DNA from: an uncultured Clostridia bacterium
GTDB taxonomy: Bacteria > Bacillota > Clostridia > Christensenellales > Borkfalkiaceae
Length of the DNA: 32,334 bases
Direction of reading: 5' to 3'
NCBI GenBank assembly: GCA_944341075.1
Contig: CALVLV010000023.1
Coordinates: 1 to 32,334 of the forward strand
Under the pieces are notes generated by a model. It did no database searches and was not told the origin of the DNA. It was given only the letters and a program-made list of their open reading frames with translations. Position 1 is the stretch's first letter. Each line of letters begins with the position of its first letter. Shown in pieces: positions 12,907 to 32,334 of this stretch. Both the position numbers and the translations under genes were made by a program.

Positions 12907-12989
12907 GCGGATATGGCGGAATTGGCAGACGCGCAGGTTTCAGGTTCCTGTGGGCGACCGTGCAGGTTCAACTCCTGTTATCCGCACCA
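12907..12989 (+). tRNA. tRNA-Leu, anticodon CAG
   Basis: Acceptor strands GCGGATA and TATCCGC pair over 7 bp and the 3' CCA is encoded. The D-arm region GGCGGAATTGGCAGACGC is that of leucine tRNAs. The anticodon loop TTCAGGT gives CAG, on a stem with one T-T mismatch at its loop end. A long variable arm (TGGGCGACCG) marks a class II tRNA. The T-arm GCAGG/TTCAACT/CCTGT is complete. It decodes CUG. A strong promoter lies upstream and a terminator immediately downstream. Confidence 0.97.
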
Positions 12990-13028
12990 AAAATCGGTGC
13001 AAGGTTTTCTACCTTGCACCGATTTTTG
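12990..13028 (+). terminator. Intrinsic terminator of tRNA-Leu
   Basis: A 15-bp stem AAAATCGGTGCAAGG/CCTTGCACCGATTTT with a 7-base loop follows the CCA directly and ends in a T-run. Confidence 0.92.
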
Positions 13029-13034
13029 GTTTTG

Positions 13035-13249
13035 TGTGGATTATACAGGAGTTGAGGGACGAGCGAGGCATTTCATAGCACAATGGACACCCATTGTGCG
13101 TGCCGAAGCGAGATGAGCAAACGCATATGAAAGGCGTTTGCGGTGACCGAATGCGGCGGCATTTTACATTACGCCGCACGAGACGGCAAGAGCGGGAGCC
13201 AATTTAACCGTGCGCCGCGCTCAAGCGGCAACTCCTGTTATCTGCACAA
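13035..13249 (+). repeat. Fold-back element ending in a copy of the tRNA-Leu 3' end
   Basis: The right end (13229-13249) matches the last 21 bases of the upstream tRNA-Leu (12969-12989) at 19 positions. The left end (13035-13054) is an imperfect inverted copy of that tail, with CAGGAGTTG conserved. The arms therefore form a terminal inverted repeat of about 20 bp. Inside are further hairpins: CACAATGG/CCATTGTG at about 13080-13099, AAACGC/GCGTTT at about 13119-13139, and GCGGCG/CGCCGC at about 13154-13177. No open frame with a ribosome binding site is present. It resembles a small non-autonomous element anchored on a tRNA tail, or a decayed partial tRNA duplication. Confidence 0.6.
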
Positions 13250-13372
13250 TTTATACCTTATTTTTTAGATTTATCCGCTTCACTCTTTTCGTTCGTTTCG
13301 GTCAAAATTACATGATAAAGACTCAAAGCAGTCGCACAAAAAGATGCGAGCAGTAATAGTTCCCTCTTACTA
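13250..13372. other. Short non-coding gap, nothing recognised
   Basis: A/T-rich sequence between the fold-back element and the promoter of the next gene. No gene or structure could be supported. Confidence 0.3.
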
Positions 13373-13402
13373 TTGACTTCCGACAATAATCCATGGTATC
13401 AT
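13373..13402 (+). promoter_or_regulatory. Promoter of the WapI/DUF6228-like gene
   Basis: TTGACT and TATCAT are separated by 18 bases, and the ATG follows 22 bases after the -10 box. Confidence 0.65.
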
Positions 13403-13424
13403 ATGTAAAAAAAGGTGTATTGAC

Positions 13425-13787
13425 ATGGCAGTTCTTACAGCCGAAGCGTTCTCTGTTGAAATAACTTTTAAAAATGATATCGTCTGTATAGCCGTAATTG
13501 ACGACGCTTACAGCGGGCGCATTTCCCTGAACTATCAAAAGCAAGATTTTGCCTCTTTTGTAAGTGAGCTTACAGAGCTGTTTCAAAGCCTGCACAAGGG
13601 CACGGCAAGCCTTGAGGAATATTACGAGCCTGAAGAAAATTTTATTGCCTTTGAAAGCGACGGAATGGGTCACTTCAATGTGAACGGTATTCTGAACAAT
13701 TGGGAAAACTGGACGCTTAAATTCAGCAAGACAATAGACCAGTCGTACTTTAAAAACTTTATCAGGCAATTGCAATCGGAAATTTAA
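13425..13787 (+). CDS. WapI/DUF6228-like small protein
   Basis: The 120-residue protein resembles the DUF6228/WapI group, some members of which are immunity proteins against contact-dependent or Rhs-type toxins. The resemblance rests on order of features. There is a two-stranded N-terminus and a helix DFASFVSELTELFQSLHKG. The strand GHFNVNGIL comes next, and a C-terminal DQSYFKNFIRQLQSEI helix completes the family pattern. Length is normal. No toxin gene is adjacent, so an immunity role is not supported by context. It has its own promoter and terminator and is more A/T-rich than its neighbours. Sitting just past the tRNA-Leu fold-back element, it could be a transferred single gene. AAAGG lies about ten bases before the ATG. 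Confidence 0.65.
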   Translation: MAVLTAEAFSVEITFKNDIVCIAVIDDAYSGRISLNYQKQDFASFVSELTELFQSLHKGTASLEEYYEPEENFIAFESDGMGHFNVNGILNNWENWTLKFSKTIDQSYFKNFIRQLQSEI

Positions 13788-13797
13788 CAGCAAACTC

Positions 13798-13827
13798 AAG
13801 CAGGGCGGCCATCGTGCCGCCCTGCTT
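13798..13827. terminator. Bidirectional terminator between convergent genes
   Basis: A 12-bp stem, AAGCAGGGCGGC/GCCGCCCTGCTT, closes a 6-base loop and separates stops at 13787 and 13832. T-runs outside the stem are short on both strands. Confidence 0.8.
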
Positions 13828-13831
13828 GTCT

Positions 13832-14746
13832 TTATCTGATATGTTGTTTTATAAATGTACCTATCTCCTCCCACGCCTGCCTGCTCTCTTTAAGTCGCGG
13901 GAACAGATACATGAAGTCGTGCCACATTCCGCAAAAACCATGCAACTGCACGCATGCTCCCGCCTCTGCCGCCGCTTTACACAGCATTATGCCGTCGCTG
14001 GCAGAGGTCTCCAGCTCTCCGTATTGCACGAGCATTGAGGGAAACCCGTCAAAATTTCCGTATACCGGCGAAAGGTAAGGGTCTGTATATGGCGTATTGC
14101 CGCAATAGGGCGACTTTCTGCGTATCTTGCTTTCATTCTCTTCAAATGAAAAACTTTTGGGCATGCCGTAGAGCGGATCTTTGTAACAATTGTATCTGTA
14201 CGAATCGCCCGAGGCCGACATGTCGACAAACGGACAGAGACACACAAGCGCACGCGGCAATGCTATGCCCTCTTCGCGCGCTTTAAAACAGGCTGAGAGC
14301 ATGAGGTTTGCCCCGAAGCTGTCGCCTATGGCCACAAATTTTTCCCCGTTAAGTTCACCGGCTGTCATCGAACTGTATGCGGCAAAACAACTTTCGTGCA
14401 CAGACGGAAATACCAGCCCTTTGCCCGTATCGTAGTCTATGCTGTAGACGGCGCAGTCGCACATGAGCGACAGCCTTTCGGCCGCGCGCCTGTACATTGT
14501 ATTCATGCCCGCAGTGTGCCCGCCGCCGTGGAACTGGATTATCGCACCGTCGACAGGCCCTTCCGGAGCTATTCTCTCCACTCTCACGCCGCCGCAATTC
14601 AGCACTTCAAAGCCAAATCCACGCGGAGCACTGTAAGGACGGTTTTTAAGCTTTACCGTACGCGACAGCGAACGGAAATTTTTGCGGTACGGGTAGGTAT
14701 ACAGTCGCAACAGCGCACGCACGGCAAGCGCCCCGAGCGATATCAC
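13832..14746 (-). CDS. Alpha/beta hydrolase, hormone-sensitive-lipase-like esterase
   Basis: The 304-residue enzyme has the oxyanion motif HGGG (73-76), the nucleophile elbow GDSFGA with Ser143, and a late histidine in CGMWHDFMY near the C-terminus. This arrangement is that of the alpha/beta hydrolase fold-3 group, which hydrolyses short acyl esters. A basic, hydrophobic N-terminus (about 1-30) could be a membrane-touching cap helix rather than a cleaved signal. Translation starts at GTG, which overlaps the TGA of the upstream kinase as GTGA, with GGCGGAG in front. The two form an operon ended by the hairpin at 13798-13827. The natural substrate cannot be inferred. Confidence 0.9.
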   Translation of the reverse strand: MISLGALAVRALLRLYTYPYRKNFRSLSRTVKLKNRPYSAPRGFGFEVLNCGGVRVERIAPEGPVDGAIIQFHGGGHTAGMNTMYRRAAERLSLMCDCAVYSIDYDTGKGLVFPSVHESCFAAYSSMTAGELNGEKFVAIGDSFGANLMLSACFKAREEGIALPRALVCLCPFVDMSASGDSYRYNCYKDPLYGMPKSFSFEENESKIRRKSPYCGNTPYTDPYLSPVYGNFDGFPSMLVQYGELETSASDGIMLCKAAAEAGACVQLHGFCGMWHDFMYLFPRLKESRQAWEEIGTFIKQHIR

Positions 14747-15693
14747 AGCTCCGCCAGCCTTTTATTCATATTTTTCACAAGCGGATCCATGATAAGCCCT
14801 ACAAGCACGCCCGACTTTATATAGCAATAGACCTCGTTCCACAGCCCGTAAAAGGCGAGTTTCTGCATGCAGTACCTGCTTGCGCCGTATTTTCTGATAT
14901 ATGTTTCGCGCAGAAAAAAGCGCTTGCCCGTAAGGTTATCGAACTGAAACAGATCGTATTCCCTGTCTGCATACATTGAATTGAGGGGGTCGATTATCCC
15001 CGTTATTTCATACCCCTTGCCCACCATTATATTGCCGACATTCAGGTCGCCGTGAATAAGGCAGGCGGTCTTTACTTTTTCAGAGAAAATCACATCGAAT
15101 TTTTTCCACGCGGCGCGCATTGCCGTGATTATCTTATCGGAAATCTGTCCCTTTTTGTGATACTCCTCTGCTTTTCTCAGCACTTCGGCGGCAAACAGCC
15201 TGTAGTAGTCGAGCCAATCGTCGCAGTCGGGATCAAGAGTATCGCCGAATTTGTCGCTCGTGACCGAATGTATACGATGCAGAGCAGAAGTTATTTTATC
15301 GGCAAACTCAAGCCTTCGCTTTTTGCTCATGAAGAGCATGCCGAGTGCAAAAAGCGCGCTCTTGCCCTCTATCATTTCCATGCCGTAACAATCGACCGGA
15401 ATTGTTTTATCGGCTTCGCGCGTGAACATAACGGCGGGTATTTTAATGTCGCAGTTAGCCGAAAGCAGAGATAGGTCGTGCGCCTCCTTTGCCATCATAT
15501 CTTTTGCGCGCAGAAATTTGACGACTATTCTTTTGCCTTTAAGCGTTGCCGCCACAGCCCTTCCGAAAGATCCGCCGCCAAGGTATTCAAGCGCGGTCGG
15601 CTGTTCGCCTGTTTTCTCTTTTATAACAATTCCTGCATATTGCAGCGCCTGCCCCTTTGTGAGCGGCAGGGCCTCTATTCTTTCAACTTTCAC
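14743..15693 (-). CDS. Fructosamine-kinase/APH-fold phosphotransferase
   Basis: The protein has the ATP-lobe motif LGGGSFGRAVAATLKGKRIVVKF near its start. The catalytic loop HGDLNVGNIMV and the metal-binding aspartate in GIIDPLNSMYADREYDL follow; IDP with DRE is the form seen in fructosamine and ketosamine kinases. The start chosen is GTG 15693 (316 residues), because GGTGGG lies six bases upstream; a longer frame opens only with TTG at 15753 and no ribosome binding site. A TATAAT at 15717-15722 would give a very short leader. It overlaps the esterase start by four bases. The acceptor could be a sugar-amine adduct or another metabolite. It shares the superfamily, not close similarity, with the kinase at 9125. 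Confidence 0.87.
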   Translation of the reverse strand: MKVERIEALPLTKGQALQYAGIVIKEKTGEQPTALEYLGGGSFGRAVAATLKGKRIVVKFLRAKDMMAKEAHDLSLLSANCDIKIPAVMFTREADKTIPVDCYGMEMIEGKSALFALGMLFMSKKRRLEFADKITSALHRIHSVTSDKFGDTLDPDCDDWLDYYRLFAAEVLRKAEEYHKKGQISDKIITAMRAAWKKFDVIFSEKVKTACLIHGDLNVGNIMVGKGYEITGIIDPLNSMYADREYDLFQFDNLTGKRFFLRETYIRKYGASRYCMQKLAFYGLWNEVYCYIKSGVLVGLIMDPLVKNMNKRLAEL

Positions 15694-15777
15694 GCCGTAC
15701 CCACCTGTTTTTTTATAATTATACTGCGCCCGTCGGCATGATTCTATATACAATATTTACCTGCTCATATACTTATT

Positions 15778-16749
15778 TTACCTTTTCAGCAGAGCACTTC
15801 TGTACTGCGCGGGCGTCACCCCGAAAGTCGGGCAGAAAATTTTATACAGCGCCGAAGCGTTTGCATAACCGACCTCGGCGGCAATGCTCTCTACGCTCAT
15901 GTCTGTTCCCGCAAGAAGGCGGCAGGCCTCGCTTAAACGTAATTGACTGAGTATTTGCGAAAAGGTTTTGCCCGTGCGCTCCTTTATCAGCCTGCTGAGA
16001 TAGCTTGCGTTATAGCCGCACATATATGCATAATCTTTAAGGTTTGCCGATTTAAGCGCCCCGCAGGCATACTCGCGTATGCTTTCTATAAGTCCGTTGC
16101 AGGCTTCCGCGTTTCCACGCGCAAGTTCTACAAACAACAATTTCAGATAACATTCAGTGGCATCGGCCGTAAACCCGTCGTCAGACTGACTTTCAAACAA
16201 CAGTTTGAGCACAAGCAGTTTTGCTCCCTCGTTTGCGGCAAACTTATGCGCCCCGTTAAGTCCCTTAAACTGCGGAAAGGTTTCCGCCGTTCTTTCAAAC
16301 AGATCTGCAGGAATAGACAGTTTTAAAATAATGTCGCCCTTGCCGCACCGCTCTATTGAATGCGCCGTGCCCGGGCATAGGAGCATGCATTGGCCTGCAT
16401 GCATTATGTCTTTCCCGTCAGCCAATGTCTGTCTGCACGTTCCGTCAAATACGAATATAAGCTCGTAGTAGTCGTGGCCGTGGAAATACGGCCGCTGCGA
16501 CGACGTATGTTTTTTTACGGAAAAATGTTTCTCCGTGCGTATCGGAAGAAAACTGAAGTTTGTTTTTGCCGCACCGCTCTTTTGAAACCTGCTCAGCGTA
16601 AGTCTGCGGGCGCGCGCTTCCTCTATTATACTCTGGCTGTTTACAAATTGCCGCTTTATTTCGGCAAAGAAAAGCTCTTCGTCGGCGCTCTCTTTCAGGT
16701 CGCTCTTCTCCTGCGATTGCAGTATCTGTAAAAATCTGCCGTTTTCCAT
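15778..16749 (-). CDS. AraC-family transcription regulator
   Basis: The 323-residue protein has a cupin-type sensor in the N-terminal part (YFHGHDYYELIFVFDGTCRQTLADGK at about 100-125, with HAGQCMLLCPGTAHSIE after it). A C-terminal AraC DNA-binding domain with two helix-turn-helix units (about 225-320) follows, including MSVESIAAEVGYANASALYKIFCPTFGVTPAQYR. Such regulators bind a small ligand, often a sugar, and activate nearby genes. AAGGGGGG precedes the ATG. It has no obvious operon partner: rpiB ends just upstream behind a hairpin, and the kinase operon starts 85 bases downstream. The kinase/esterase pair is a possible target by position. Confidence 0.93.
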   Translation of the reverse strand: MENGRFLQILQSQEKSDLKESADEELFFAEIKRQFVNSQSIIEEARARRLTLSRFQKSGAAKTNFSFLPIRTEKHFSVKKHTSSQRPYFHGHDYYELIFVFDGTCRQTLADGKDIMHAGQCMLLCPGTAHSIERCGKGDIILKLSIPADLFERTAETFPQFKGLNGAHKFAANEGAKLLVLKLLFESQSDDGFTADATECYLKLLFVELARGNAEACNGLIESIREYACGALKSANLKDYAYMCGYNASYLSRLIKERTGKTFSQILSQLRLSEACRLLAGTDMSVESIAAEVGYANASALYKIFCPTFGVTPAQYRSALLKR

Positions 16750-16788
16750 GTCGTTCCCCCCTTAGCACTCGGCTAAATTAAAATATAA

Positions 16789-16816
16789 GGGTGGCGCTAG
16801 TTATGATGCACCACCC
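16789..16816 (-). terminator. Terminator of the sbcD-to-rpiB run
   Basis: A 9-bp stem GGGTGGTGC/GCGCCACCC with one G-T pair and a 10-base loop is followed on the minus strand by TTATATTTTAATTT. It lies 12 bases past the rpiB stop. Confidence 0.65.
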
Positions 16817-16828
16817 CGTAAAGCCGTG

Positions 16829-17278
16829 TTACTTGCAATACTTCTTTTCTATAGCGGTTATCTTATCTACCCTGCGGCTGTGCCTGCCGCCTTCAAATTG
16901 GGTGGTAAGAAACTTTTCTACTATTTTGAGCGCGTAGCCTGCTCCAACGACCTTTTCACCCATGGCAAGCATGTTTGCGTTGTTGTGCAGACGGGTAAAT
17001 TCCGCGCAATATGTGTCGTGACAGTGCGCGCAGCGTATGCCGGGCACTTTATTTGCCACGATGGAAACGCCTATGCCCGTAGAGCATACCACAATGCCAA
17101 GGTCGCATTTGCCTGCGGCAACAGCCTCTGCGGCGGGCAGAGCGTAATCGGGGTAGTCGCAGCTGTCTTTGGTGTATGTGCCGAAGTCTTCAAATTCATA
17201 GCCGTGTTCTTTGAGATAACCTATTATTTCGCCTTTGAGGTTAAGGCCGCCGTGGTCGCACGCAAGTGCAATCTTCAT
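16829..17278 (-). CDS. rpiB: Ribose 5-phosphate isomerase B
   Basis: RpiB interconverts ribose 5-phosphate and ribulose 5-phosphate in the pentose phosphate pathway; relatives act on allose or galactose phosphates. The 149-residue protein has the N-terminal ACDHGG motif, the catalytic cysteine 65 in VVCSTGIG, and the anion-binding GIRCAHCHDTYCAEFTRLHNNANML block. The family more often has CGTG where this one has CSTG. Length is normal. AAAGGAG lies before the ATG. It is the last gene of the long run that ends at the hairpin 16789-16816, following the phosphatase by 33 bases. Confidence 0.95.
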   Translation of the reverse strand: MKIALACDHGGLNLKGEIIGYLKEHGYEFEDFGTYTKDSCDYPDYALPAAEAVAAGKCDLGIVVCSTGIGVSIVANKVPGIRCAHCHDTYCAEFTRLHNNANMLAMGEKVVGAGYALKIVEKFLTTQFEGGRHSRRVDKITAIEKKYCK

Positions 17279-17311
17279 GATAAAACTCCTTTTATTTGCA
17301 ATCTATGTATT

Positions 17312-17773
17312 TTATTTATTTTCGTCCTCTGAAACGGCGGGCAGAATAATTTTTTCTATAACGCTGTCGCAGGCGATGGCAATGGCGTCGCGTGCGGCGC
17401 GGTATACATCCATGTTGCCGCCGTAAGGGTCGGGGATATCGAATCCGCAGAGATCTTTAACACTGTACACCTTGCCGCAGTTTTCAAGCACCTGTTTCTG
17501 CTTTTCAGTCATGCAGATGACGGCGTAACTCCTGTCTATTATGTCCTGGGTGAGCTGGCGGGGCGCAAATTTTTTAAGCGGAATACCGGCTTCAGAGAGC
17601 GCGGCGGCGCTGCCCTGCGAAATCGTTCCGCCCACTTCGGCGAACATTCCGCAGGAAGCCACGTCCCACCATTTTATTTTTCTTTGCTTTATCTTGCTCT
17701 TCAATATCGCTTCGGCCATGGGGCTTCGGCAGGTATTACCCGAACATACAAACAGGATCTTTTTACGTTTCAT
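17312..17773 (-). CDS. Low-molecular-weight phosphatase, probably protein-arginine phosphatase (YwlE-like)
   Basis: The P-loop CSGNTCRSPMAEAIL near the N-terminus and the acid loop DIPDPYGG near the C-terminus define the low-molecular-weight phosphatase fold. In YwlE, threonine at the fifth position of C-x-G-N-T-C-R gives selectivity for phosphoarginine, where tyrosine phosphatases usually have isoleucine or leucine. This protein has that threonine, so arginine phosphatase activity is the best guess. The start chosen, 17773, gives 153 residues. It overlaps the TGA of the Sua5 gene as ATGA and has GGGAG six bases upstream; an upstream in-frame codon at 17788 is less likely. Sua5, ywlE and rpiB neighbour each other in Bacillus subtilis too, supporting the name. 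Confidence 0.9.
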   Translation of the reverse strand: MKRKKILFVCSGNTCRSPMAEAILKSKIKQRKIKWWDVASCGMFAEVGGTISQGSAAALSEAGIPLKKFAPRQLTQDIIDRSYAVICMTEKQKQVLENCGKVYSVKDLCGFDIPDPYGGNMDVYRAARDAIAIACDSVIEKIILPAVSEDENK

Positions 17774-18789
17774 TTTTTGCTCCCGCACGCCTTGGTCAGC
17801 CTGTTCATGACGCCCGTCATAACGCCGCCCCTCTCCCCGGGAGCTATCGCTATTATCATATTGGCGACACGCTCGCCCTCGCGCAGCCTGTCATACAGGT
17901 TTGCGGCGATATCTTCCCCGCTTTCGCCGAGAAAAAGGAGATGTTCGGGGTTGAGTTCGCGGGCGCACTCGCCGTTGCACATGATATACGCGTTTACGCC
18001 CGCGGCGCGCTGTCTTTTATACTCGTCCATTGCGGCATAACGCTCTTCAAAACTGAAGAGCATGGTGTCGCAGTTGGGGGAATAATGTTTGTATTTCATG
18101 CCGGGGGAGCGGACTTTTTCGCCCGCCTTTGGAACAAACTCCCCGCAATCGCCCGCAATTTCGGCTATCATTTCGCGCGTGACAAGCCCGCTGCGGAGCA
18201 CGCACGGAACAGTTCCCGTGCAATCGAGCACTGTGCTCTCTATGCCGCCCGTGCACTTGCCGCCGTCTATGATGAGCGGAATTTTACCGTTGAGGTCGGA
18301 AAAAACGTGCTCGGCGGTGACGGGGCTGACATGCTTTGAGATATTTGCCGACGGCGCGGCTATTGGCAGACCGACAGCCCTTAAAAACCTCTGCGCATCG
18401 GGGTGCGAAGGCACACGTATGCCTACCGTATCCAGCCCGCACGAAACGGCGTCCGCCACAGTACCCCTGCTTTTGAATACCATAGTGAGCGGCCCGGGGA
18501 GGTATTTTTGCGCAAGTTTTTTTGCATAGTCGGGGATATCTGTGACGATGCGCGAAATATCGTAACCCTCGTGCACATGAACTATCAGAGGGTTGTCCTG
18601 CGGCCTGCCCTTTACGCGGAATATGCTCAGCACGGCCTCTTCGTCAAACGCGTTGGCGCCCAGCCCGTATACCGTCTCTGTGGGAAAGGCTACAAGCCCG
18701 CCCTGCTCTATTATATTTCTGGCCGCCGAAAGGCAGTCGCTGTCAGGTTTTTTTATTTCTGTGATCATTTTACTGCCCGTAAAATTCAT
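17770..18789 (-). CDS. Threonylcarbamoyl-AMP synthase (Sua5 type)
   Basis: The enzyme makes threonylcarbamoyl-AMP from threonine, bicarbonate and ATP for the t6A37 modification of ANN-decoding tRNAs. Residues about 10-200 are the YrdC/TsaC domain, with VAFPTETVYGLGANAFD and KGRPQDNPLIVHV. A linker containing RSPGMKYKHYSPNC leads to a C-terminal Sua5 domain (about 240-335). The 339-residue length is that of the long Sua5 form rather than short TsaC. The frame opens at ATG 18789, overlapping the dnaB TGA as ATGA. A second ATG at 18768 would match the family N-terminus slightly better, so the exact start is open. It overlaps the YwlE-like gene by four bases. Confidence 0.94.
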   Translation of the reverse strand: MNFTGSKMITEIKKPDSDCLSAARNIIEQGGLVAFPTETVYGLGANAFDEEAVLSIFRVKGRPQDNPLIVHVHEGYDISRIVTDIPDYAKKLAQKYLPGPLTMVFKSRGTVADAVSCGLDTVGIRVPSHPDAQRFLRAVGLPIAAPSANISKHVSPVTAEHVFSDLNGKIPLIIDGGKCTGGIESTVLDCTGTVPCVLRSGLVTREMIAEIAGDCGEFVPKAGEKVRSPGMKYKHYSPNCDTMLFSFEERYAAMDEYKRQRAAGVNAYIMCNGECARELNPEHLLFLGESGEDIAANLYDRLREGERVANMIIAIAPGERGGVMTGVMNRLTKACGSKK

Positions 18790-20285
18790 TCGCCGTTGTA
18801 TTCGTTGTCGGAAAAGACCATGCCGTCGTCCGGCATATCGCCGTCCTCGCCGAACGGCAGCTCCTCGTCGGAACGGACGTCCTTCTTTTCCTTGCCCGCG
18901 CCCTCTTCCTTATACTGCTTGCCCTGCTGGGCGGCTATCTGTTTGAGTTCTGCAGGATCGGGCGTTACAAACTTTGTGTATTCGCCTTTGAAACGCAGCT
19001 GAGTTCTGCCAAGTTCGCCGTTTCTGTGCTTTGCGACTATAAGGTCGGCCATGCCGCGAATTATCTTATTCTTTTCTATCTCTTCGGGCGTAGCAGTCAT
19101 GTCGGGGCGGTTTATAAAAATTACCATGTCGGCGTCCTGCTCTATGGCGCCCGATTCGCGCAGGTCGGAAAGCTGAGGTTCGCCGACCATACGGCGAAGC
19201 TGCGAAAGCGCTATTACGGGGACATCGAGCTCTTTGGCCATAATTTTAAGGTCGCCCGTTATGTGCGCTATCTCACGCGTGCGGTTTTCTTCCTGGCGTG
19301 AGCCGCTGGACATCAGCTGTATGTAGTCTATCATCACAAGGTCAAGCCTGCCGCCGTTTTTTGCCTTTATACGCCTGCACTTTGAAAGTATTTCGGCGGG
19401 CGTAACGCGGGACGAATCGTCTATGATGATAGAAAGCTGTTTGAGCTCTTCGCTGGTTTTTACCAGAGCCTTCCAGTCGTTGGGGGTGAGCTTGCCGGAA
19501 AGCGCGTTCGACATGCTCACCTTGGCGCTTGCGCACAGCAGCCTTTGAACTATCTGTATCTTGGGCATTTCCAGCGAAAATACCGCGCATACGTTGCCAC
19601 TGTACGCTGCCGCCTCAACGATATTCATCGCAAGCGAAGTTTTGCCGCTGCCGGGGCGCGCCGCAATTACTATAAGGTCGGAGCGCTGGAAGCCGTTTGT
19701 TATCTTGTTTAAGAAAGGGAAGCCTGTAGGTATGCCGCGCAGCGCGTCTTTATTGCTGGCTATGGTGGAAAATCTTTCAATTACGTCGCCCACCACGGTG
19801 CTTTCGCGTATGTCGTCCATAGACGAAGTGTCGCCCTTTTTGGCGATGTCGTATACAAGTTTTTCGGCATACTGAACGCTCTGCGTGCCGTCTGTGCTGT
19901 TCATAGAGTTTTCTATGATGTTGCGCGCGGCGCGTATGAGTTCGCGATTGGTGCTGTCGCGCTTTACTATATCGAAATAGTACCTGTAATTGGCGGCCGA
20001 AGGCGCCTTTTGCATCAGGTCGGTGATATAATCTATACCCCCGACCTTTGCAAGGTTGCCCTCTTTTTCAAGGCAGTCGGTAAGCGTGACAAGATCTGTG
20101 GGTCTGCGCTGGTTGAATATCTTTAAAATGGCACCCATTATAAGCTGGTGCGATTCCTGGTAGAAATCTCTGTCCGAAAGCTTGTCTACCACTTCGGAGA
20201 GCACATCGTTATCTATCAGCATGCTTGCAAGAAGTGCCTGTTCCGCCTCTAAATTGTTAGGTAAAACGTTGGTTTTGTCTGACAT
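18786..20285 (-). CDS. dnaB: Replicative DNA helicase DnaB
   Basis: DnaB is the hexameric 5'-3' helicase at the replication fork. The 499 residues have the N-terminal helical domain (about 8-110, opening NNLEAEQALLASMLID), a linker, and the RecA-like motor. The motor holds Walker A ARPGSGKTSLAMN (about 207-219), Walker B VMIDYIQLM and the sensor SQLRR. An acidic tail (about 465-499) extends beyond the core. The start is six bases after the pepF stop and lacks a clear ribosome binding site, so coupling to pepF is likely. Sua5 overlaps its stop. Many Bacillota keep dnaB beside rplI and a GdpP homologue; this placement beside pepF and Sua5 differs. A helicase-loader-like zinc module occurs in the gene at 30181. 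Confidence 0.96.
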   Translation of the reverse strand: MSDKTNVLPNNLEAEQALLASMLIDNDVLSEVVDKLSDRDFYQESHQLIMGAILKIFNQRRPTDLVTLTDCLEKEGNLAKVGGIDYITDLMQKAPSAANYRYYFDIVKRDSTNRELIRAARNIIENSMNSTDGTQSVQYAEKLVYDIAKKGDTSSMDDIRESTVVGDVIERFSTIASNKDALRGIPTGFPFLNKITNGFQRSDLIVIAARPGSGKTSLAMNIVEAAAYSGNVCAVFSLEMPKIQIVQRLLCASAKVSMSNALSGKLTPNDWKALVKTSEELKQLSIIIDDSSRVTPAEILSKCRRIKAKNGGRLDLVMIDYIQLMSSGSRQEENRTREIAHITGDLKIMAKELDVPVIALSQLRRMVGEPQLSDLRESGAIEQDADMVIFINRPDMTATPEEIEKNKIIRGMADLIVAKHRNGELGRTQLRFKGEYTKFVTPDPAELKQIAAQQGKQYKEEGAGKEKKDVRSDEELPFGEDGDMPDDGMVFSDNEYNGE

Positions 20286-20291
20286 AGTACA

Positions 20292-22067: not shown

Positions 22068-22096
22068 AATATATATCCTTTAAGCAATAATTATTT

Positions 22097-23452: not shown

Positions 23453-23460
23453 GTCTTCCC

Positions 23461-23730
23461 TCAGATCCTGTGCATTGCATTGAATATCTCTTCATGCTGA
23501 AGGTGTATGCTCATGCCTATATTTTTGCCCATTTCGGCACATTCTGCGGCAAGCACGGAGAGTTCCTCCTCCGCACCAGATGTATCTACAAGCATTATCA
23601 TGGTAAAATATTCCTGCAGAATCGTCTGGCTGATATCAAGTATGTTTACGCCTTTTTCCGCAAGGAAGGTGCTCACCTTGGCTATTATGCCCGTCTTGTC
23701 TTTGCCGACAACGGTAACTACTGCACGCAT
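23461..23730 (-). CDS. ACT domain protein (UPF0237)
   Basis: The 89-residue protein is a pair of compact ACT-type repeats starting [36 protein letters not shown], the pattern of the UPF0237 family related to GcvR. It most likely binds an amino acid and acts through protein contact. The start at 23730 is chosen because AGGAG lies seven bases before it; a longer frame to 23793 would add 21 residues not found in the family. It precedes the UPF0210 gene by eight bases. A hairpin (CCCT-GCGG/CCGC-AGGG, 23765-23790) lies upstream in the gap to lepB, without a T-run. Confidence 0.92.
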
Positions 23731-23810
23731 AGTTGTTCTCCTGTGTAATTTATGTATATAGTACCCCTGGCGGGGCAACTGCCGCAAGGGCAATTTATCA
23801 ATTTGAAAAA

Positions 23811-24473
23811 TCAGTAGATGCCGAACCTTAAAAAGTTATATATCGGCGAAAAAAATCCCTTCATCGCAAGCGACCAGTCGGCTATAACGCCCACAAGGCT
23901 GTCGTAAGAAAAAGTTCCGTAGCGGCGGCTGTCGTTACTGAATATGATCTCGTTGCCGTCGCGGTAGCCCCTGTTGTCGCCAAGCACAAACATGTGCCCT
24001 TCGGGCACGACGAGCGGATCGTCTTCCGAACGGTAGCTGTTATACGGAAGGTCGGGGTCGTTTTGCTCATCGAGGACGTAGTCCTCTTCCAGGGCGAAAA
24101 ACTGTTCCGTACCCGCCGTCTTGAGGTATACGACGCCGCGGCTCATATATATCTCGTCGCCGCCGAGCGCAATAACGCGTTTTATTATATAGCGCGAAGT
24201 GTTTTCGGGCAACACAACAACAATGTCTCCCCTGTCGGGCAGGGCATAGGTATCGGCATACAGATAGTCGCCGCCCGGCATTGCCTCACCTGAAGAAGAT
24301 TCGGGCGCGCCTGTGAGTGTGGGCGACATTGAAGAGCCGTTTACATATATGCCGACATAGCGCGTTGTAAACAGCCCTATACATACAAGCAGAAAGGCAA
24401 TTATTATGCAGAATATTACCAGCGGATCTTTGTAAGGGGCGTACCGCTTTTGCCCGAGCAGTCTGTCACCCAT
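23811..24473 (-). CDS. lepB: Signal peptidase I
   Basis: LepB removes signal peptides from exported preproteins at the outer face of the membrane. The 220-residue protein has one membrane anchor (about 18-37) and the catalytic serine 48 in NGSSMSPTL. The general-base lysine 98 lies in RYIIKRVIALGGDEI, and the box VLGDNRGYRDGNE is at the end of the catalytic core. Architecture is the single-anchor form usual in Bacillota. An acidic, Ser/Gly-rich insertion follows the serine box (about 56-68). It starts just after the hydrolase-like gene (TGATATG) with no clear ribosome binding site, so coupling is probable. Confidence 0.95.
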   Translation of the reverse strand: MGDRLLGQKRYAPYKDPLVIFCIIIAFLLVCIGLFTTRYVGIYVNGSSMSPTLTGAPESSSGEAMPGGDYLYADTYALPDRGDIVVVLPENTSRYIIKRVIALGGDEIYMSRGVVYLKTAGTEQFFALEEDYVLDEQNDPDLPYNSYRSEDDPLVVPEGHMFVLGDNRGYRDGNEIIFSNDSRRYGTFSYDSLVGVIADWSLAMKGFFSPIYNFLRFGIY

Positions 24474-24474
24474 A

Positions 24475-26154: not shown

Positions 26155-26155
26155 C

Positions 26156-28828
26156 TCAGCAACTGATGCTTATGGACGAGCCGTGGCTTTCAGTTGCTTT
26201 ACTTACTATTATTTTACTGCTTATTCTGTGTTTTAACTCCTCTACGTGGCTGATAAGCCCTATAGAAAAGTTTTCGTTCTTCAATTTTTCCAGTGCGCCG
26301 AGCACGGTGTCTATCAGGTCGGCGTCCAACGTGCCGAAGCCTTCGTCAAGGAAGAAAAATTCTATCGACTTCATTGAGCGGCTGCATATGGTGTGGCTGA
26401 GAGCCAGCGCCAGCGAGAGCGATACGAGAAATGTTTCGCCGCCGGAAAGCGTTTTTACCTTCCTCAGTTCGCCGCCGTTATAGTTGTCGCCCACGCAGAA
26501 GTTGTTGTCTGTGTAGGAAAGAAAGTATCGGCCGTCGGTCAGCTCGATGAGCGTGCGCGAGGCAAGGCGGGATATATTTACCAGATGTTCGTTGGCGATA
26601 TATTCCATAAACTTATTGTCGCGTATAAGGCTTTTAAGTTTGCCGATGAGGTCGAGCGAATGTTTTATCTGTCTGTACTGCTTTTCCAGCGCGGCTTTTT
26701 CCTTAAGCCTGACTTCCATATCTGCCGAGGACTTCTGTGAAACGGCATATTCGTCGGCGGTATCCCTGTACAGCCGCTCGACCTGATTTTTCGTGGCAAG
26801 CGCGGCTTCAAGCTCACCTTCGACAGTGGCAGGCACCGCCTGCATATCGCCGAAACTTGCCACAAGGCTCTCTGCCGCGGCGTATTCGGCGGTAAACGCG
26901 CCGTACTCCTCTATGGCGGCGCCATAGCTGTTGTATTTTTTCAGTAGTTCCCGGCACTTCTGAACCGAATGCAGTTTTGAATTCGCAAGGTTTTCCGCGG
27001 CAGCCTGTTCAGCCCTTTTGAGCTGAGATTCGAGCGACTGTACCTCCGCCTGAGAGGCGGCCGTTGCGGCCGCGTTTTGCGAAAGTTCTTTTTTGAGCTT
27101 TTCAACGCCTTCGGCAAGCACGCACTGCTTTTCTGTGGCAAGCCTGGCCTTTCTGGCGACCTCGCCGTACGCTGCGCGATAGTCAGCGACGCCTTCTCCG
27201 AAAACTTTTGCAAGCTGTTCTTCAAGTTCGGAAATTTCGCCCGAGAGCTTTTCGCCGCGCCCCCTTATCTCTTCAAGTTTTTCGCAAATCGCCTGAAGTT
27301 CGCTTGAACACGTCTTTTTCGTTCCCTCGAGCCGCGTTACCGCCGTTTCTGCCTCCCTGCGCTTTTTTAGCGTTGCCTGAAATTCTGCAAGGCCGCGGTT
27401 TACATCGAACCTTGCGTCCTTCACGGAGAGAATAAGTTGCTTATACTCCTCGGCCTTGCGCGCAAGTTCGCCGCTTAAATAGTCGTACAGTGCCGAGTTG
27501 TCGTTGAACGTGCGTATTTCGGCCTGCAGGTCTTTTATATAGTCAAGCGTGCGGGCATATTCCTCCCTGAGGATGCCGCCCTTCAGGTGTTTTTTGAAGT
27601 ATTCGTCTATATCCGGCTCGGGCATTGCCGCCAAAGCCCCCTGTGCCTCGGCAAGCGCCTTTACTATACCGTCGCACTCGCGCTGTTTTGCTACAAGGCT
27701 TTTTGAACCCGTTCTGTAACTTTCGCGGCAGGCCTCGCGCTCCCTCTTTCTGTCGTCAAGCGTTTTGCATACGGGCAACAGGCCTGCCATGGCGCTCTCT
27801 GCCTTGCTTAGTTTTTCGGCCTCGCCCGCGGCAACGCACTCGTCAAGCTTTTTCTGCTCTTCACCGAGGCGGGCGGAAAGTTCGGCAGAATGCGCGGCAA
27901 GCTCGCCGCACTTTATGCGCTTTGCCTCAAGCTCTTTTGAAAAATTTTCTGCCTCTGAAGTATATTTTGAAACTCTCTCGCAGTAAGAAAGTATGGGCAG
28001 TACCCTTGCAAGTTCGTCATAGCGCGGTTTGCGCTCTTTAAGGGCGGCAAGCCTTGCGCGCGCATCGGCGCACGCCCTGGCCTTTTCAGCCAGCTCCTTA
28101 AGCGCCGAATACTTTTCGGCCGCCTCTGCCGACTTGGTCTTATATTCTTCACAGAGCGCCGCAAGCTGTGCATTGCGCTCTTTAAGCTGCGCAAGCGCTT
28201 CCTCGGTGTCCCTTTCGTATACGCTCAGGCTGCCGAAAAGGGTGTCTGCTCGGGTTTGCGCCTTGCTCTCCCTGTCGTTTATTTTGGCCTTGAGCGCCGC
28301 GCCGTACTTTTGGAGATTGAACAGCCTTTCAATCAGCTGTATCCTTTCGGAGGGGAGCGAATTTACAAACTGCGCAAATTCACCCTGCGGCAGGGCGATG
28401 CACTTGCGGAAGTCTTCCTTGTTTATGCCTATTATCTCGGTTATTTTGTCGGTGACCGACTTTACGTTATCGGCAATTGCGACCGACTTGCCGTCGCTGT
28501 ATTCATACAGCATGGCCTTGTGGGTGCCGCTCTTGCGCTTTATGCTGCGCTCCACGAGGTAGCTCTTACGTGCGCCTTCGGTCTGAATATCGAATGTAAA
28601 GCTTACTTCAAGCTCGTCGCACTTATAGTTTATCTTGTCAAGCTTGTCGGGGTTGCGCTCTATATCGCCGTACAGCGCAAAGTTGATTGCGTCGAGTATA
28701 GTGCTCTTTCCGCTGCCAGTTTCGCCGAAGATGCCGAATATGCCGCTTTTTAAAAGCGGTTCAAAATCTATTACCGCCCTTTCGGAAAAGCTGTTAAGCC
28801 CCTTGAATTCCAGTCTTACAGGTTTCAT
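26156..28828 (-). CDS. sbcC: Nuclease SbcCD subunit C, without zinc-hook cysteines
   Basis: SbcC is the SMC-like ATPase of the SbcCD complex, which opens hairpins and processes blocked DNA ends. The 890 residues have Walker A GETGSGKS (35-42), long charged coiled-coil arms (about 180-720), the ABC signature TLSGGETFLVSLSLALAL and Walker B FFFLDEGFGTLD. Typical family length is about 1000. The hallmark CxxC zinc hook at the coil apex is missing: none of the cysteines are spaced C-x-x-C, and the apex (about 400-440) reads AMPEPDIDEYFKKHLKGG. The start overlaps the sbcD TGA as ATGA with GGAGG just upstream. Confidence 0.94.
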   Translation of the reverse strand: MKPVRLEFKGLNSFSERAVIDFEPLLKSGIFGIFGETGSGKSTILDAINFALYGDIERNPDKLDKINYKCDELEVSFTFDIQTEGARKSYLVERSIKRKSGTHKAMLYEYSDGKSVAIADNVKSVTDKITEIIGINKEDFRKCIALPQGEFAQFVNSLPSERIQLIERLFNLQKYGAALKAKINDRESKAQTRADTLFGSLSVYERDTEEALAQLKERNAQLAALCEEYKTKSAEAAEKYSALKELAEKARACADARARLAALKERKPRYDELARVLPILSYCERVSKYTSEAENFSKELEAKRIKCGELAAHSAELSARLGEEQKKLDECVAAGEAEKLSKAESAMAGLLPVCKTLDDRKREREACRESYRTGSKSLVAKQRECDGIVKALAEAQGALAAMPEPDIDEYFKKHLKGGILREEYARTLDYIKDLQAEIRTFNDNSALYDYLSGELARKAEEYKQLILSVKDARFDVNRGLAEFQATLKKRREAETAVTRLEGTKKTCSSELQAICEKLEEIRGRGEKLSGEISELEEQLAKVFGEGVADYRAAYGEVARKARLATEKQCVLAEGVEKLKKELSQNAAATAASQAEVQSLESQLKRAEQAAAENLANSKLHSVQKCRELLKKYNSYGAAIEEYGAFTAEYAAAESLVASFGDMQAVPATVEGELEAALATKNQVERLYRDTADEYAVSQKSSADMEVRLKEKAALEKQYRQIKHSLDLIGKLKSLIRDNKFMEYIANEHLVNISRLASRTLIELTDGRYFLSYTDNNFCVGDNYNGGELRKVKTLSGGETFLVSLSLALALSHTICSRSMKSIEFFFLDEGFGTLDADLIDTVLGALEKLKNENFSIGLISHVEELKHRISSKIIVSKATESHGSSISISC

Positions 28829-29973
28829 TCATCCTCCGTCAGCGATAAAAACAGCTCCAGAAGGTCTGCAGGCGCCTCCGCTCCGAAGCGTTGCCTGTAG
28901 TATTCGGTAAACAGCTGCGAAGAGCTTTTGCCCGCGTTGCGGGCGACTTCGCCCGCAGAGATCTGCGCATCCACCGCCATGTGCAGCGAATACAGATTTT
29001 CGCATGAATGCAGCGTGCTTATTTCAGACGGAGAGAGCGGTTCTGTAAGGTTAAGCGTAAGTTCTGCTATCGCGTCGCCGTTATCTTTGAGCAGCTTGAG
29101 CGCACCGTCAACGCTGTTTGCCTGAAGGCGGACAAGCCTTGCGCACGAAGTGAGCGGCACGCTTTTAAAGTTCTGTACGCCGTCTGAAGTTATGTCGAAC
29201 ACGTTGACAGACTTTTCCTGCCCCGCCTCGTCAAAAGTAAAGCGCATTATTGCGCCGCTGTAATATATGTTGTTGCCAAGGTTCTGCCTTCTGTGCAGAT
29301 GCCCCAGCGCACTGTAATCACACTTGGGAAAGAGATTTAGCCCCACGACACGCGCGCCGCCAAGGTCTATTTCCCTTTCGCTGTCGCTTGCCTTGCCACC
29401 CGCCGCAAATATATGTGACAGGAATACAGAGGGCATTCCCTCCTCCCTGCCGCGCTCGCCGTACTCTATCCAGCGCGCCATTTTTTCGGCAAAGCTTTCA
29501 TCGCTCTTACCCTCTTTGAATCGCGCTTCGTTGGGGTAGGGCAGCATATTTATATACAGCCTCTCCCCCGCGGTATTTTCAAATATCGCGTAGCCGCCTT
29601 CGGACTTTACGGGGTAGCACGCTCCGCGCTTTTTGCAGTCGAGCGGCTTTAAATTATTGCCTACCGTATATATATTCAGCTCTTCGGAAAGCGACTGTGC
29701 TGCGGTGAGCCGCACGTAATCATCGTGGTTGCCGCTTATTATCAGCACTGCGCACGATTTTGCTATGTTTCGCACGGAGGAATAGAATATCTCTTCGGCC
29801 TCGGCAGACGGAGTATAGGTATCGAACACGTCGCCTGCAACAAGCAGCAGTTCTACCTGCTCGCGCCTGCATATGTCGCCGATCTCTTCAAGCACTCTTT
29901 TAAATTCTTCTCCCCTGTCCCTTCCCATCAGCTTTTTGCCGATGTGCCAGTCGGATGTGTGCGCAATCTTCAT
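28825..29973 (-). CDS. sbcD: Nuclease SbcCD subunit D
   Basis: SbcD is the manganese-dependent nuclease subunit of SbcCD, related to Mre11. The phosphoesterase motifs are in order: SDWHIG at the N-terminus, GDVFD, SGNHDD and GHLH. The start at 29973 (382 residues, MKIAHTSDWHIG) is chosen because the family begins there. The frame continues upstream to 30117, but that part has no ribosome binding site and no family similarity. The chosen start also lacks a strong site (AAGAAATTATAAC only). It overlaps sbcC by four bases and is the first gene of the eleven-gene minus-strand run, divergent from the dnaD-like gene. Confidence 0.94.
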   Translation of the reverse strand: MKIAHTSDWHIGKKLMGRDRGEEFKRVLEEIGDICRREQVELLLVAGDVFDTYTPSAEAEEIFYSSVRNIAKSCAVLIISGNHDDYVRLTAAQSLSEELNIYTVGNNLKPLDCKKRGACYPVKSEGGYAIFENTAGERLYINMLPYPNEARFKEGKSDESFAEKMARWIEYGERGREEGMPSVFLSHIFAAGGKASDSEREIDLGGARVVGLNLFPKCDYSALGHLHRRQNLGNNIYYSGAIMRFTFDEAGQEKSVNVFDITSDGVQNFKSVPLTSCARLVRLQANSVDGALKLLKDNGDAIAELTLNLTEPLSPSEISTLHSCENLYSLHMAVDAQISAGEVARNAGKSSSQLFTEYYRQRFGAEAPADLLELFLSLTEDE

Positions 29974-30030
29974 GTTATAATTTCTTAAACGCGCCCTGTT
30001 GCTGCCGCCGCGCCATCTTTTGGCAAACGG

Positions 30031-30059
30031 TTGCATTTTCGGGCGATTTGGTTTATAAT
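30031..30059 (+). promoter_or_regulatory. Promoter of the dnaD-like gene
   Basis: TTGCAT, 17 bases, TATAAT. It predicts a leader of about 115 bases before the ATG at 30181, within the divergent sbcD/dnaD-like gap. Confidence 0.7.
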
Positions 30060-30069
30060 AATCAACACC

Positions 30070-30116
30070 TGCCGCATGATGTAGCGGCACATACAGAACA
30101 TGCCTGCCCGCAGGCA
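30070..30116 (+). promoter_or_regulatory. Two tandem hairpins in the dnaD-like leader
   Basis: TGCCGC (30070-30075) pairs with GCGGCA (30084-30089), and TGCCTG (30101-30106) pairs with CAGGCA (30111-30116). Neither is followed by a T-run. A second TATAAT (30125-30130) lies just after and could mark an alternative start. Confidence 0.4.
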
Positions 30117-30180
30117 AGATATGTTATAATTATATTCCTTTTGAGTAAATAAATCAAGCGTTGGAACAGGGTTTTGCGAT

Positions 30181-31899
30181 ATGGCTTTTATCTCCCTCTC
30201 CCCCGAACTTAAGGCAAAGTCGTTTACGGGTGTAGAAAACAAATTCATAACAAAGTACATGCCTGTGCTTGACGCGCAGGCCGTAAAAGTGTATCTGTAC
30301 GGGCTGTACCTCAGCCAGAGCGGCAGCACGTTCACAGTAGCCGACCTGGCCGCCGCCCTGAACATTACCGAGGAACAGGCCGAAGGCTGCTTTGACTATC
30401 TCGACGAATTCGAGCTGGTAAAAGTGACGGCACGCGCGCCCTTTGAAGTCACTTACCTCGACGCCGAAAACATAAGCGGAACGCCAAAAAAATACAAGCC
30501 GGAAAAATATGCCGACTTTGCGCGCAGCGTACAGACTATAATAAAGGGCAGAATGATATCGCCCAACGAATACCGCGAATACTTCTATCTCATGGAGGAA
30601 TACGGCTTTGAACAGGGCGCCCTTCTCATGATAGTCAATTACTGCGTAAATATGAAGGGCGACGATATACGCATACAGTACATAAAAAAAGTGGCTAAAA
30701 GCTTTGCAGCCGACGGGGCGACCACGGCAAAAAAGGTCGAAGAACGGCTTGCAAAATTCACATATTCCACCCCCGCGCTTACAAAAATCTTTGCGGCGGC
30801 GGGAATTACGCGCAGCCCGGGCATAGAGGACGACAGGCTGTATAAAAAATGGACTGAGGAGCTCGGCTTTACCGACGATGCCATAGCCGCGGCGGCAAAA
30901 TGCTTCAAGGCAAAGAATACCGAGCGGATAGACGAAGTGCTTGACGAACTGTTCAGGAACAAGAAGTTCGACGCAAAAGAGATAGAGTTCTATTGCAAAA
31001 ATAAAAACGCCATAAAGACGGCAACGACGGATATTGCCCGCGCCCTTGGCATATACGTGGCAAACACCGCCCCCTACATTGAAAACTATGTGGGCGTATG
31101 GTGCGATATGGGCTATGAGCTGTCTACCCTCGGCCGTATAGCCGCATACTGCTTCACGCATGAAAGAAAGTCGTTTGAAGGCATGGACGACTTTATAAAA
31201 AAACTGTACGAAAAGGGCATCATAGAGGAAAAAGCCGTACGTTCGTATATAGAGATGATGAACGCAGAAGACGCCTTTATAAAGAAAACGCTTGTAAAAT
31301 GCGGCCTGACAAGGCGAATAATACCTTCGGACAGGCAGTTTTTGTCGCGTTGGCGCGAATGGAATTTTTCAGATGAGATGATACTGCGCGCCGCCGAGCT
31401 GGCCGCAGGCAAAAATAACCCCGTGGCATACATGAACGGCGTGCTTTCGTCATGGAAGGCAGAAGGCACCTTCACGCCCGACAAGATAGAGAGCGGAGTC
31501 CATGCCGTTGCCACGCACGAGGGAAAATCTGTCGACCGCTCCGTTATAGAGAGGCATTATGCAAGGCTGAGACAGCTAGCCGAAGACAGGGCGGAAAGCA
31601 TACAGCAGAAGGCGCTTGACGACGAACTTTACGGCAAACTGCACGGCGAGATAAATTCTCTGGGGATAAAACTTGCTTTTGCCGAGGCGCGCGGAGATTC
31701 ATCGGCCGCCGAGCTGGAGACAAAGATATCTGAGGCGCAGGCCGCTGCGGACGCAAGGCTTGCAGAGCTGGGCATAGACAAGGCAGACTTTACGCCCCGT
31801 TACAGCTGCAGCATATGCAACGATACCGGGTACGACGCTGACGGCAAACCCTGCAGATGTCTTAAAAAATTTATACAGGAATATAACAACGCGGGCTGA
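30181..31899 (+). CDS. DnaD-domain protein fused to a DnaI-type helicase-loader zinc module
   Basis: DnaD proteins remodel DNA during primosome assembly. This 572-residue protein is far longer than DnaD of Bacillus subtilis (about 230). Residues 1-100 form a winged-helix-like N-terminus (DAQAVKVYLYGLYLSQSG). At least two DnaD C-terminal-like repeats follow (about 110-185 and 410-470, the latter with NPVAYMNGVLSSWKAEG). The last 95 residues read like the N-terminal part of DnaI/DnaC-type loaders: a helical arm, then a zinc module CSIC-NDTGYDADGKP-CRC (Cys 543, 546, 558, 560). In those loaders an AAA+ ATPase comes next, but this frame stops at 31899 and no ATPase follows. The ribosome binding site is weak. 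It has its own promoter. Confidence 0.85.
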   Translation: MAFISLSPELKAKSFTGVENKFITKYMPVLDAQAVKVYLYGLYLSQSGSTFTVADLAAALNITEEQAEGCFDYLDEFELVKVTARAPFEVTYLDAENISGTPKKYKPEKYADFARSVQTIIKGRMISPNEYREYFYLMEEYGFEQGALLMIVNYCVNMKGDDIRIQYIKKVAKSFAADGATTAKKVEERLAKFTYSTPALTKIFAAAGITRSPGIEDDRLYKKWTEELGFTDDAIAAAAKCFKAKNTERIDEVLDELFRNKKFDAKEIEFYCKNKNAIKTATTDIARALGIYVANTAPYIENYVGVWCDMGYELSTLGRIAAYCFTHERKSFEGMDDFIKKLYEKGIIEEKAVRSYIEMMNAEDAFIKKTLVKCGLTRRIIPSDRQFLSRWREWNFSDEMILRAAELAAGKNNPVAYMNGVLSSWKAEGTFTPDKIESGVHAVATHEGKSVDRSVIERHYARLRQLAEDRAESIQQKALDDELYGKLHGEINSLGIKLAFAEARGDSSAAELETKISEAQAAADARLAELGIDKADFTPRYSCSICNDTGYDADGKPCRCLKKFIQEYNNAG

Positions 31900-31933
31900 C
31901 GGCAGTATCCGACATATCCGATAAGACATATAA

Positions 31934-31968
31934 ATGACGGCGATGTACACCACCGCCGTCATTTTTTT
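31934..31968 (+). terminator. Intrinsic terminator of the dnaD-like gene
   Basis: A perfect 9-bp stem ATGACGGCG/CGCCGTCAT with an 11-base loop is followed by a run of seven T. It lies 35 bases after the stop. Confidence 0.92.
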
Positions 31969-32010
31969 GCACATACTGTATAAAAACATTTCTGCCTCGT
32001 AAAAATTTAA

Positions 32011-32149
32011 GCGCGTAAAAAAAAGAGATACCGTGAAAATGGTATCTCCTGTAATGGAGCTCGACGGATTTGTAAGGAGCGCAGCGACGGAATAGCCATT
32101 GTTCGCCGCAAGTCGTAATGGCGTCCATATTTCGATGATCCGGTTGGCA
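32011..32149 (-). repeat. Tandem tRNA-tail repeat, diverged copy 1
   Basis: This 139-base copy matches the next one over most of its length but has drifted. On the minus strand its tRNA-tail part (32055-32072) reads CAAATCCGTCGAGCTCCA, three bases shorter than in copy 2. The terminator stem has changed to GAGATACC/GGTATCTC (32025-32032 with 32041-32048), so both strands of the stem changed together. The inner GCCATT/AATGGC hairpin remains. The T-run on the minus strand lies at 32017-32024. Confidence 0.85.
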
Positions 32150-32290
32150 GCGTGTAAAAAAAGAGATATCGTGAATACGATATCTCTTAATATGGAGCTG
32201 CTAACCGGATTTGTAAGGAGCGGAGCGACGGAATAGCCATTGTTCGCCGCAAGGCACAATGGCGTCCATATTTCGATGATCCGGTTGGCA
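32150..32290 (-). repeat. Tandem tRNA-tail repeat, complete copy 2
   Basis: The unit is 141 bases. Read on the minus strand it starts with an arm (32279-32292) that pairs over about 14 positions with 32197-32210. Between them is the inner hairpin GCCATTGT/ACAATGGC (32236-32243 with 32256-32263). The 3' part, at 32193-32213, reads CAAATCCGGTTAGCAGCTCCA. This looks like the T-loop, T-stem, acceptor strand and CCA of a tRNA, probably of the threonine type. A strong intrinsic terminator follows. Confidence 0.88.
32156..32188 (-). terminator. Intrinsic terminator inside repeat copy 2
   Basis: A perfect 12-bp stem AAGAGATATCGT/ACGATATCTCTT with a 4-base loop is followed on the minus strand by a run of seven or more T. 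It lies four bases after the tRNA-like CCA. Confidence 0.85.
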
Positions 32291-32334
32291 GCGTGTAAAA
32301 AAAGAGATATCGTGAATACGATATCTCTTAATAT
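32291..32334 (-). repeat. Tandem tRNA-tail repeat, copy 3 cut by the window edge
   Basis: The first 44 bases repeat 32150-32193 without a difference and include the same terminator stem (32302-32329). The rest lies beyond the window, so the array or its parent tRNA gene continues to the right. Confidence 0.88.

Follow-up and report, generated by a model that had tools for sequence, protein, structure and literature searches.

Hairpin elements carrying the 3′ end of the adjoining tRNA or tmRNA in uncultured gut Clostridia

Can a small hairpin element take on the 3′ end of whichever tRNA it lies beside? This question was raised by a contig of an uncultured Clostridia bacterium of the family Borkfalkiaceae (GenBank assembly GCA_944341075.1, contig CALVLV010000023.1, hereafter C23), the whole of which, 32,334 nt, was analyzed and is called the window. 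Behind tRNA-Leu(cag) (12907..12989, plus strand; tail C56-A76 at 12969-12989), a perfect terminator-like hairpin (12986..13030, arms 12986-13005 and 13011-13030) is followed on the same strand by a copy of the tRNA tail in antisense, with small insertions (left arm, 13034..13054), a hairpin core with extra hairpins and a CACAATGG palindrome at 13079-13098 (13055..13228), and a sense copy of the tail (right arm, 13229..13247), in which 18 of 19 nt equal tRNA positions 12969-12987. The initial annotation had seen the same plan beside a second, different tail at the right edge of the window and proposed a family of elements with interchangeable tRNA ends. We identified the two tails as those of tRNA-Leu and tRNA-Thr.

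Host-matched arms at tRNA and tmRNA 3′ ends

We scored the sequence downstream of each tRNA for an inverted and then a direct copy of that tRNA's last 21 nt, and compared the scores with those of tails swapped between tRNAs. Eight of the 22 tRNAs of this genome with at least 150 nt downstream reached the cut-off, the 99th percentile of 402 swapped-tail comparisons (p ≤0.0025). One of them, L018, lay barely above it and was discounted because its score stems from a convergent array, the tail of which is identical to the tail of the tRNA-Pro on contig C41. The remaining seven, namely Leu, Glu, Tyr and four Ser tRNAs, are followed by a terminator, an antisense tail, a hairpin core and a sense tail, which confirmed the fold-back architecture at tRNA tails. 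The flank is not peculiar to the window, since many tRNAs and many relatives have one, and the arms take on the 3′ end of the tRNA that they adjoin, as had been proposed. In a genome of the same genus without a match to the main core, the plan occurred at 2 of 42 tRNAs, with other cores; in the one genome examined from another family of the order, it occurred at none of 37.

The commonest core was described by a covariance model, R1, and the counts of distribution below apply to this main core only. The Leu element of the window matches R1 at 13030-13248 (44.4 bits, E 5.2e-9) and is a divergent member of a genus-wide family, with additional hairpins. After the 172 R1 matches had been reduced to 160 unique copies, a same-strand tRNA was sought within the upstream 1 kb and was found for 118. 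Ninety of these copies begin 33-46 nt past the CCA of the tRNA, the gap being filled by a terminator-like hairpin. The sense copy spans the tail from C56 in the T-loop to CCA. Matched to its own tRNA, it scores 19-21 of 21 in 96 of 118 copies, compared with 9 of 2360 swapped tails that reach 19. The antisense arm is shorter, mostly about 10 nt around the T-arm (mainly nt 56-65; median score 10/21), and extends through CCA only in some copies (L010c, L013). Its score is at least 10 in 92/118 copies compared with 76/2360 swapped tails. We therefore state host-matched arms, together with the architecture, as an observation.

The host tRNAs carry 19 isoacceptor labels, chiefly Ser, Leu, Pro and Gly. 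The orientation is uniform: all 118 copies have their tRNA upstream on the same strand, and within 250 nt downstream we found just one opposite-strand tRNA, whose tail is not the one carried. Of the remaining 42 copies, a CCA tail end lies upstream of 23 and is lacking upstream of 19. At four loci where ARAGORN gave no directly upstream gene, Rfam identified an upstream transfer-messenger RNA (tmRNA); therefore, the target is the T-arm/CCA end rather than the tRNA as such. At a further locus behind tRNA-Pro (L165, G061:C50), the left arm partly fits tRNA-Pro and the right arm is a tmRNA-type tail, and this copy is likely a recombinant between two elements.

Structure and distribution of the main core

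An alignment of 23 copies gave an outer helix, P1, which comprises the arms, and four inner helices. In 27 of the 35 consensus pairs, both partners have changed in one or more sequences, compensatory change occurs in all five helices, and 91-98% of helix cells are Watson-Crick. The unit is about 140-165 nt long. The conserved GGGGAGGC of the core adjoins the antisense stretch, and a weaker AATA-like consensus lies on the other side. The element was rejected as a known structured RNA because it fits no Rfam family: with Rfam 15, only tRNA and tmRNA reached the gathering score in the window, at 10 loci and at six loci listed to E 1.

Within the genus, R1 found a match in 62 of 93 genomes, ours among them; the 31 without a match include many incomplete metagenome-assembled genomes (MAGs) and were searched with stricter filters. 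In a sample of the order, 7 of 151 genomes matched, all of the same family (three genera). None of the at most 142 genomes of this sample from outside the family matched, nine same-family genomes being among those listed; 124 of the 151, with family kinship not given, had no match. Among the genomes searched, the main core is thus confined to one family. The carriers are uncultured gut Clostridia, and among named genomes the core pattern was found in 15 stretches from Clostridia MAGs, including Candidatus Coproplasma avicola and stercoravium.

Movement between tRNAs and descent

In the genome G002, cores that are 93-97% identical lie downstream of tRNA-Leu(tag) (at 546 nt), tRNA-Arg(cct) (at 36 nt) and tRNA-Pro(cgg) (two units, at 39 and 443 nt), and in each of these units the left arm and the tail fit the respective tRNA. 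In the third Pro unit, which is 89% alike, the left arm has decayed. Core identity reached at least 0.8 in 20 of 132 same-genome pairs with different isoacceptors. We also determined the nearest neighbor of each of 117 cores, excluding neighbors with both the same genome and the same tRNA, and compared the result with 30 shuffles. The neighbor lay in the same genome for 20 cores (shuffle mean 2.7, maximum 7) and had the same isoacceptor for 24 (mean 8.3, maximum 12), while 73 shared neither. Because neighbors share genome or isoacceptor above the shuffles, movement and descent both seem to occur. Tandem copies are near-identical. There is strong support for the core having moved from tRNA to tRNA. 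Descent is illustrated by tRNA-Ser(gct) loci in four genomes, which have their upstream gene in common (72-81% amino-acid identity) and have all kept the element, with cores 74-87% alike, different first terminators and tail scores of 18-21/21.

Putative mechanism and rival explanations

We consider the chances about even that these are non-autonomous mobile hairpin elements at tRNA and tmRNA 3′ ends that duplicate the tail and whose arms are re-templated by fold-back copying. The core would move as DNA and enter through duplication of the tail at the T-loop, after which the left arm would be rewritten from the right arm through a template switch on the hairpin as the DNA replicates. P1 itself derives from the host, its right arm being the sense tail and its left arm an antisense copy of mainly nt 56-65. 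The host RNA remains intact because the unit sits between two T-loop-to-CCA copies of the tail, sometimes with the terminator too. This mechanism, and any function of the element, are inferences. We propose more tentatively that a dedicated process, as opposed to mutation alone, reads the recipient, such that a core landing behind a new tRNA or tmRNA gains two copies of its T-loop-to-CCA segment, one of 21 nt in sense and one of 9-10 nt in antisense, the latter being rewritten beside GGGGAGGC.

The terminators also bear on this reading. We compared the terminator after the tRNA (T1) with that after the tail copy (T2), calling them alike at a score of at least 20/33. Among 81 primary copies in which the tail copy is complete, they were alike in 24, and in one copy (L065) the repeat extends beyond the terminator. 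In the 57 copies in which they differ, T1 had the longer perfect stem in 35 and T2 in 17, with 5 ties (medians 11 versus 5, means 10.1 versus 7.8); the terminators of 11 tRNAs of our genome without the plan had a mean perfect stem of 7.1 (range 3-16). Because T1 stems are longer, it is the tail and T1 that look newer, with the old end displaced, as after a T-loop insertion with tail duplication; this reading has moderate support.

Of the roles suggested in the initial annotation, a mobile palindrome that targets tRNA tails fits best. A template for repairing tRNA ends is doubtful because the antisense arm covers mostly about 10 nt around the T-arm and reaches CCA only in some copies. Alternatively, the element may act as an RNA that pairs with tRNA.

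The paired changes in the helices are of a kind that template switching could give. Template-switch mutation is described as making or mending hairpin stems, and would yield reverse-complement copies as well as compensatory changes of several bases at once (Monttinen and Loytynoja 2022, PMC8794818). Since template switching yields such compensations, covariation alone is no proof of RNA function. That work concerns a mutation process, whereas we describe an element family.

Several observations weigh against a mobile element with re-templated arms. The sense score falls short of 19 in 22 of the 118 copies. For 19 of the 160, no tRNA and no CCA tail end was seen upstream, although in 10 of these 19 the upstream sequence is shorter than 210 nt, and at least two (L070, L171) do lie behind a tRNA-like tail, without a sense copy. 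We looked for a clean empty site in a close relative and found none. The persistence of the element at syntenic tRNA-Ser(gct) loci across species is what a vertically inherited functional RNA would show. The bulge in the left arm that is described below is hard to obtain by plain fold-back copying. In the helices, G-T mismatches exceed A-C mismatches (99 versus 52 overall), which hints only weakly that the sense RNA is under selection, as the strand test is itself weak and partly biased, the alignments having been fitted to the model. Finally, no match to a Y1 transposase or a reverse transcriptase was obtained in our genome, G002, G025 or G026, which hold 7, 9, 12 and 7 copies, respectively. 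The tRNA-Arg loci L096 and L099, which are element-free by eye, were rejected as empty sites, as they come from different species.

The main rival, which we judge rather unlikely, is a functional, structured RNA whose 3′ end resembles that of a tRNA. It would arise when transcription reads through the terminator after the tRNA, the T-arm/acceptor helix would close it, and it would end with CCA and its own terminator; tRNA enzymes would perhaps process it, and selection would keep the arms. The five helices with compensatory change, the single orientation relative to the tRNA and the retention at the four syntenic tRNA-Ser(gct) loci with their high tail scores all accord with such an RNA, as does terminator-like sequence, seen by eye after many tail copies. 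Moreover, an acceptor-like pairing run of at least 5 was found in 31 of 99 copies compared with 151 of 2798 swapped combinations, and all 31 have a bulge of 1-4 nt at the acceptor/T junction, which is either the boundary of the element or an RNA feature. Against this, 31 of 93 genus genomes gave no model match (with the reservations on assembly and filters given above), visibly different cores have the plan in common, G-T makes up no more than 3.3% of the cells of any one helix, tandem copies are near-identical, and no Rfam family is matched.

Miniature tRNA-targeting integrative elements, in which a site-specific recombinase acting in trans would cross over at the T-loop and the carried tail would restore the tRNA, are improbable in our view. 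The direct tail repeats do start in the T-loop and stop near CCA, like att identity blocks, and T1 tends to look newer than T2. The tRNA ends at L070 and L089 with apparent integrative-element junctions also bear the element. On the other hand, similar cores carry their own host's tail at many tRNAs, an outcome that simple site-specific exchange does not give, and the antisense arm is left unexplained.

A pure mutational by-product, arising by replication slippage and template switching at T-arm and terminator palindromes around an immobile core, is the least probable: these palindromes are natural fold-back points and L010c and L013 form a single continuous palindrome running through the terminator, but the near-identical cores that G002 carries behind unrelated tRNAs require movement and already weaken it, as does the absence of the plan from all 37 tRNAs of the other-family genome.

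At L070, L089, L146, L157, L184, L203 and L207, we observed elements beside a cut tRNA or mere last tail bases; these cut tails are apparently integrative-element junctions. A reading frame neighboring L089 recalls a serine recombinase by eye.

Comparison with known repeats and enzymes

Rickettsia palindromic elements, mitochondrial double-hairpin or repetitive hairpin-forming elements and yeast GC clusters are short, multi-hairpin, multi-copy and non-coding, have no known enzyme of their own, and have arms that are element sequence. The present element is likewise short, multi-hairpin, multi-copy and non-coding, as expected of such palindromic hairpin repeats; unlike in those repeats, its outer helix reproduces the tail of the host tRNA and varies with the host gene. 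We know of no small hairpin repeat whose outer arms match and track the adjoining gene. The varying outer arms also separate it from miniature inverted-repeat transposable elements, which have constant terminal inverted repeats.

Repetitive extragenic palindromic (REP) elements are small imperfect palindromes in many copies, a likeness that our element shares; in contrast, its copies are bound to tRNA and tmRNA ends. In profile searches with a cut-off of E 1e-5, our genome (94.7% complete) has no match to Y1 (PF01797), the cognate transposase (RAYT) of REP elements. Y1 was found in 26 of 93 genus genomes and reverse transcriptase (PF00078) in 30 of 93. The latter would be expected in carriers of a retroelement or group II intron derivative and gave no match in our genome, G002, G025 and G026. 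Other carriers do have Y1 matches (G015, G115 and G001, 9 copies each), G001 with reverse transcriptase as well. A resident reverse transcriptase or Y1 was thus rejected as the mobilizing enzyme, being without a match in several carrier genomes, though present in others.

Integrative and conjugative elements and phages with att identity blocks leave the tRNA whole through a direct repeat of its 3′ part. The element shares this feature, with direct tRNA 3′-end repeats flanking the insert (the 96 of 118 copies with high sense scores). It differs in being about 200 bp long, without genes, with an additional antisense arm and a tail that is nearly always the host's own. One article (PMC9897764) deals with tRNA genes as integration targets and with tRNA fragments. 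We did not find the plan described in the top-ranked literature results, which covered few subscription papers and are not proof that it is unpublished. Readings as an attC-like site or a TnpB guide RNA were considered unlikely; such a guide would target the intact tRNA itself.

If a dedicated process does read the recipient, the element would be mobile, with arms programmed by its host and a 3′ end like that of a tRNA, and thus a living analogue of the 'genomic tag' idea. In this family, the 3′ ends of tRNA and tmRNA are duplicated, apparently as a landing site, and the host RNA is left whole. The many natural copies at different tRNAs make the spread of palindromes with no known enzyme testable, as well as how far template switching, rather than selection, maintains stem pairing.

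The two window cores and the right-edge units

The right edge of the window holds tandem units on the minus strand. An outermost, degenerate unit (32010..32148; 87% identity to the next) is followed by a unit at 32149..32289, with a sense tail at 32193-32213 and imperfect arms at 32137-32151 and 32278-32292, sense and antisense being relative to the tRNA, and by the start of a third unit (32290..32334) cut by the contig end. Contig C7 begins within a tRNA-Thr tail, and its cut tRNA-Thr lies on the minus strand, with the anticodon read from the sequence. The 21-nt tail at 32193-32213 (minus strand) agrees with 18 of the 18 tail bases present in this tRNA. Because C7 begins with the right-edge unit's own continuation, C23 and C7 probably abut, and the right-edge units apparently belong to a tRNA-Thr just past the contig end, to the right and reversed. 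The plan reads the same from either side because it is palindromic.

The initial annotation had pointed to CACAATGG/CCATTGT words in both window elements, and these are indeed present at 13079-13098 and 32237-32262. However, BLAST of the Leu element against the right-edge element gave at best a 9-mer (E 0.2), that is, no detectable homology, and the right-edge units do not match R1. The likeness of the inner hairpins of the Leu and Thr cores is therefore a resemblance only, and a core common to both elements was rejected. The annotation would have given up its family had the two cores proved unrelated; this applies to the core, and the architecture stands, as visibly different cores have one plan.

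The Leu core has 34 matches to hairpin repeats across the genome and the right-edge core has 32, the window's own included in each case. Mosaic multi-hairpin repeats with CACAATGG and GAGCG/GCGA words occur at dozens of places in this genome distant from tRNAs (e.g., L026-L037), and they are apparently nested within the loops of other palindromes, as judged by eye.

In the same genome, 11 of 28 tRNA hits (of 29) are no farther than 700 nt from the end of a contig, compared with about 0.9 expected. Therefore, tail arrays may break the assembly at tRNAs, and they may account for such breaks in these genomes generally.

Additionally, 5′ tRNA fragments precede the intact gene in the window (12825-12849 and 12866-12890) and at L016 (C4:81877-81930), L093 and L100. 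Among relatives of tRNA-Arg(cct), several 5′ fragments stop at about nt 57, within the T-loop, with other hairpin cores behind them. Such 5′ fragments with other cores are the mirror image of the 3′ arrays.

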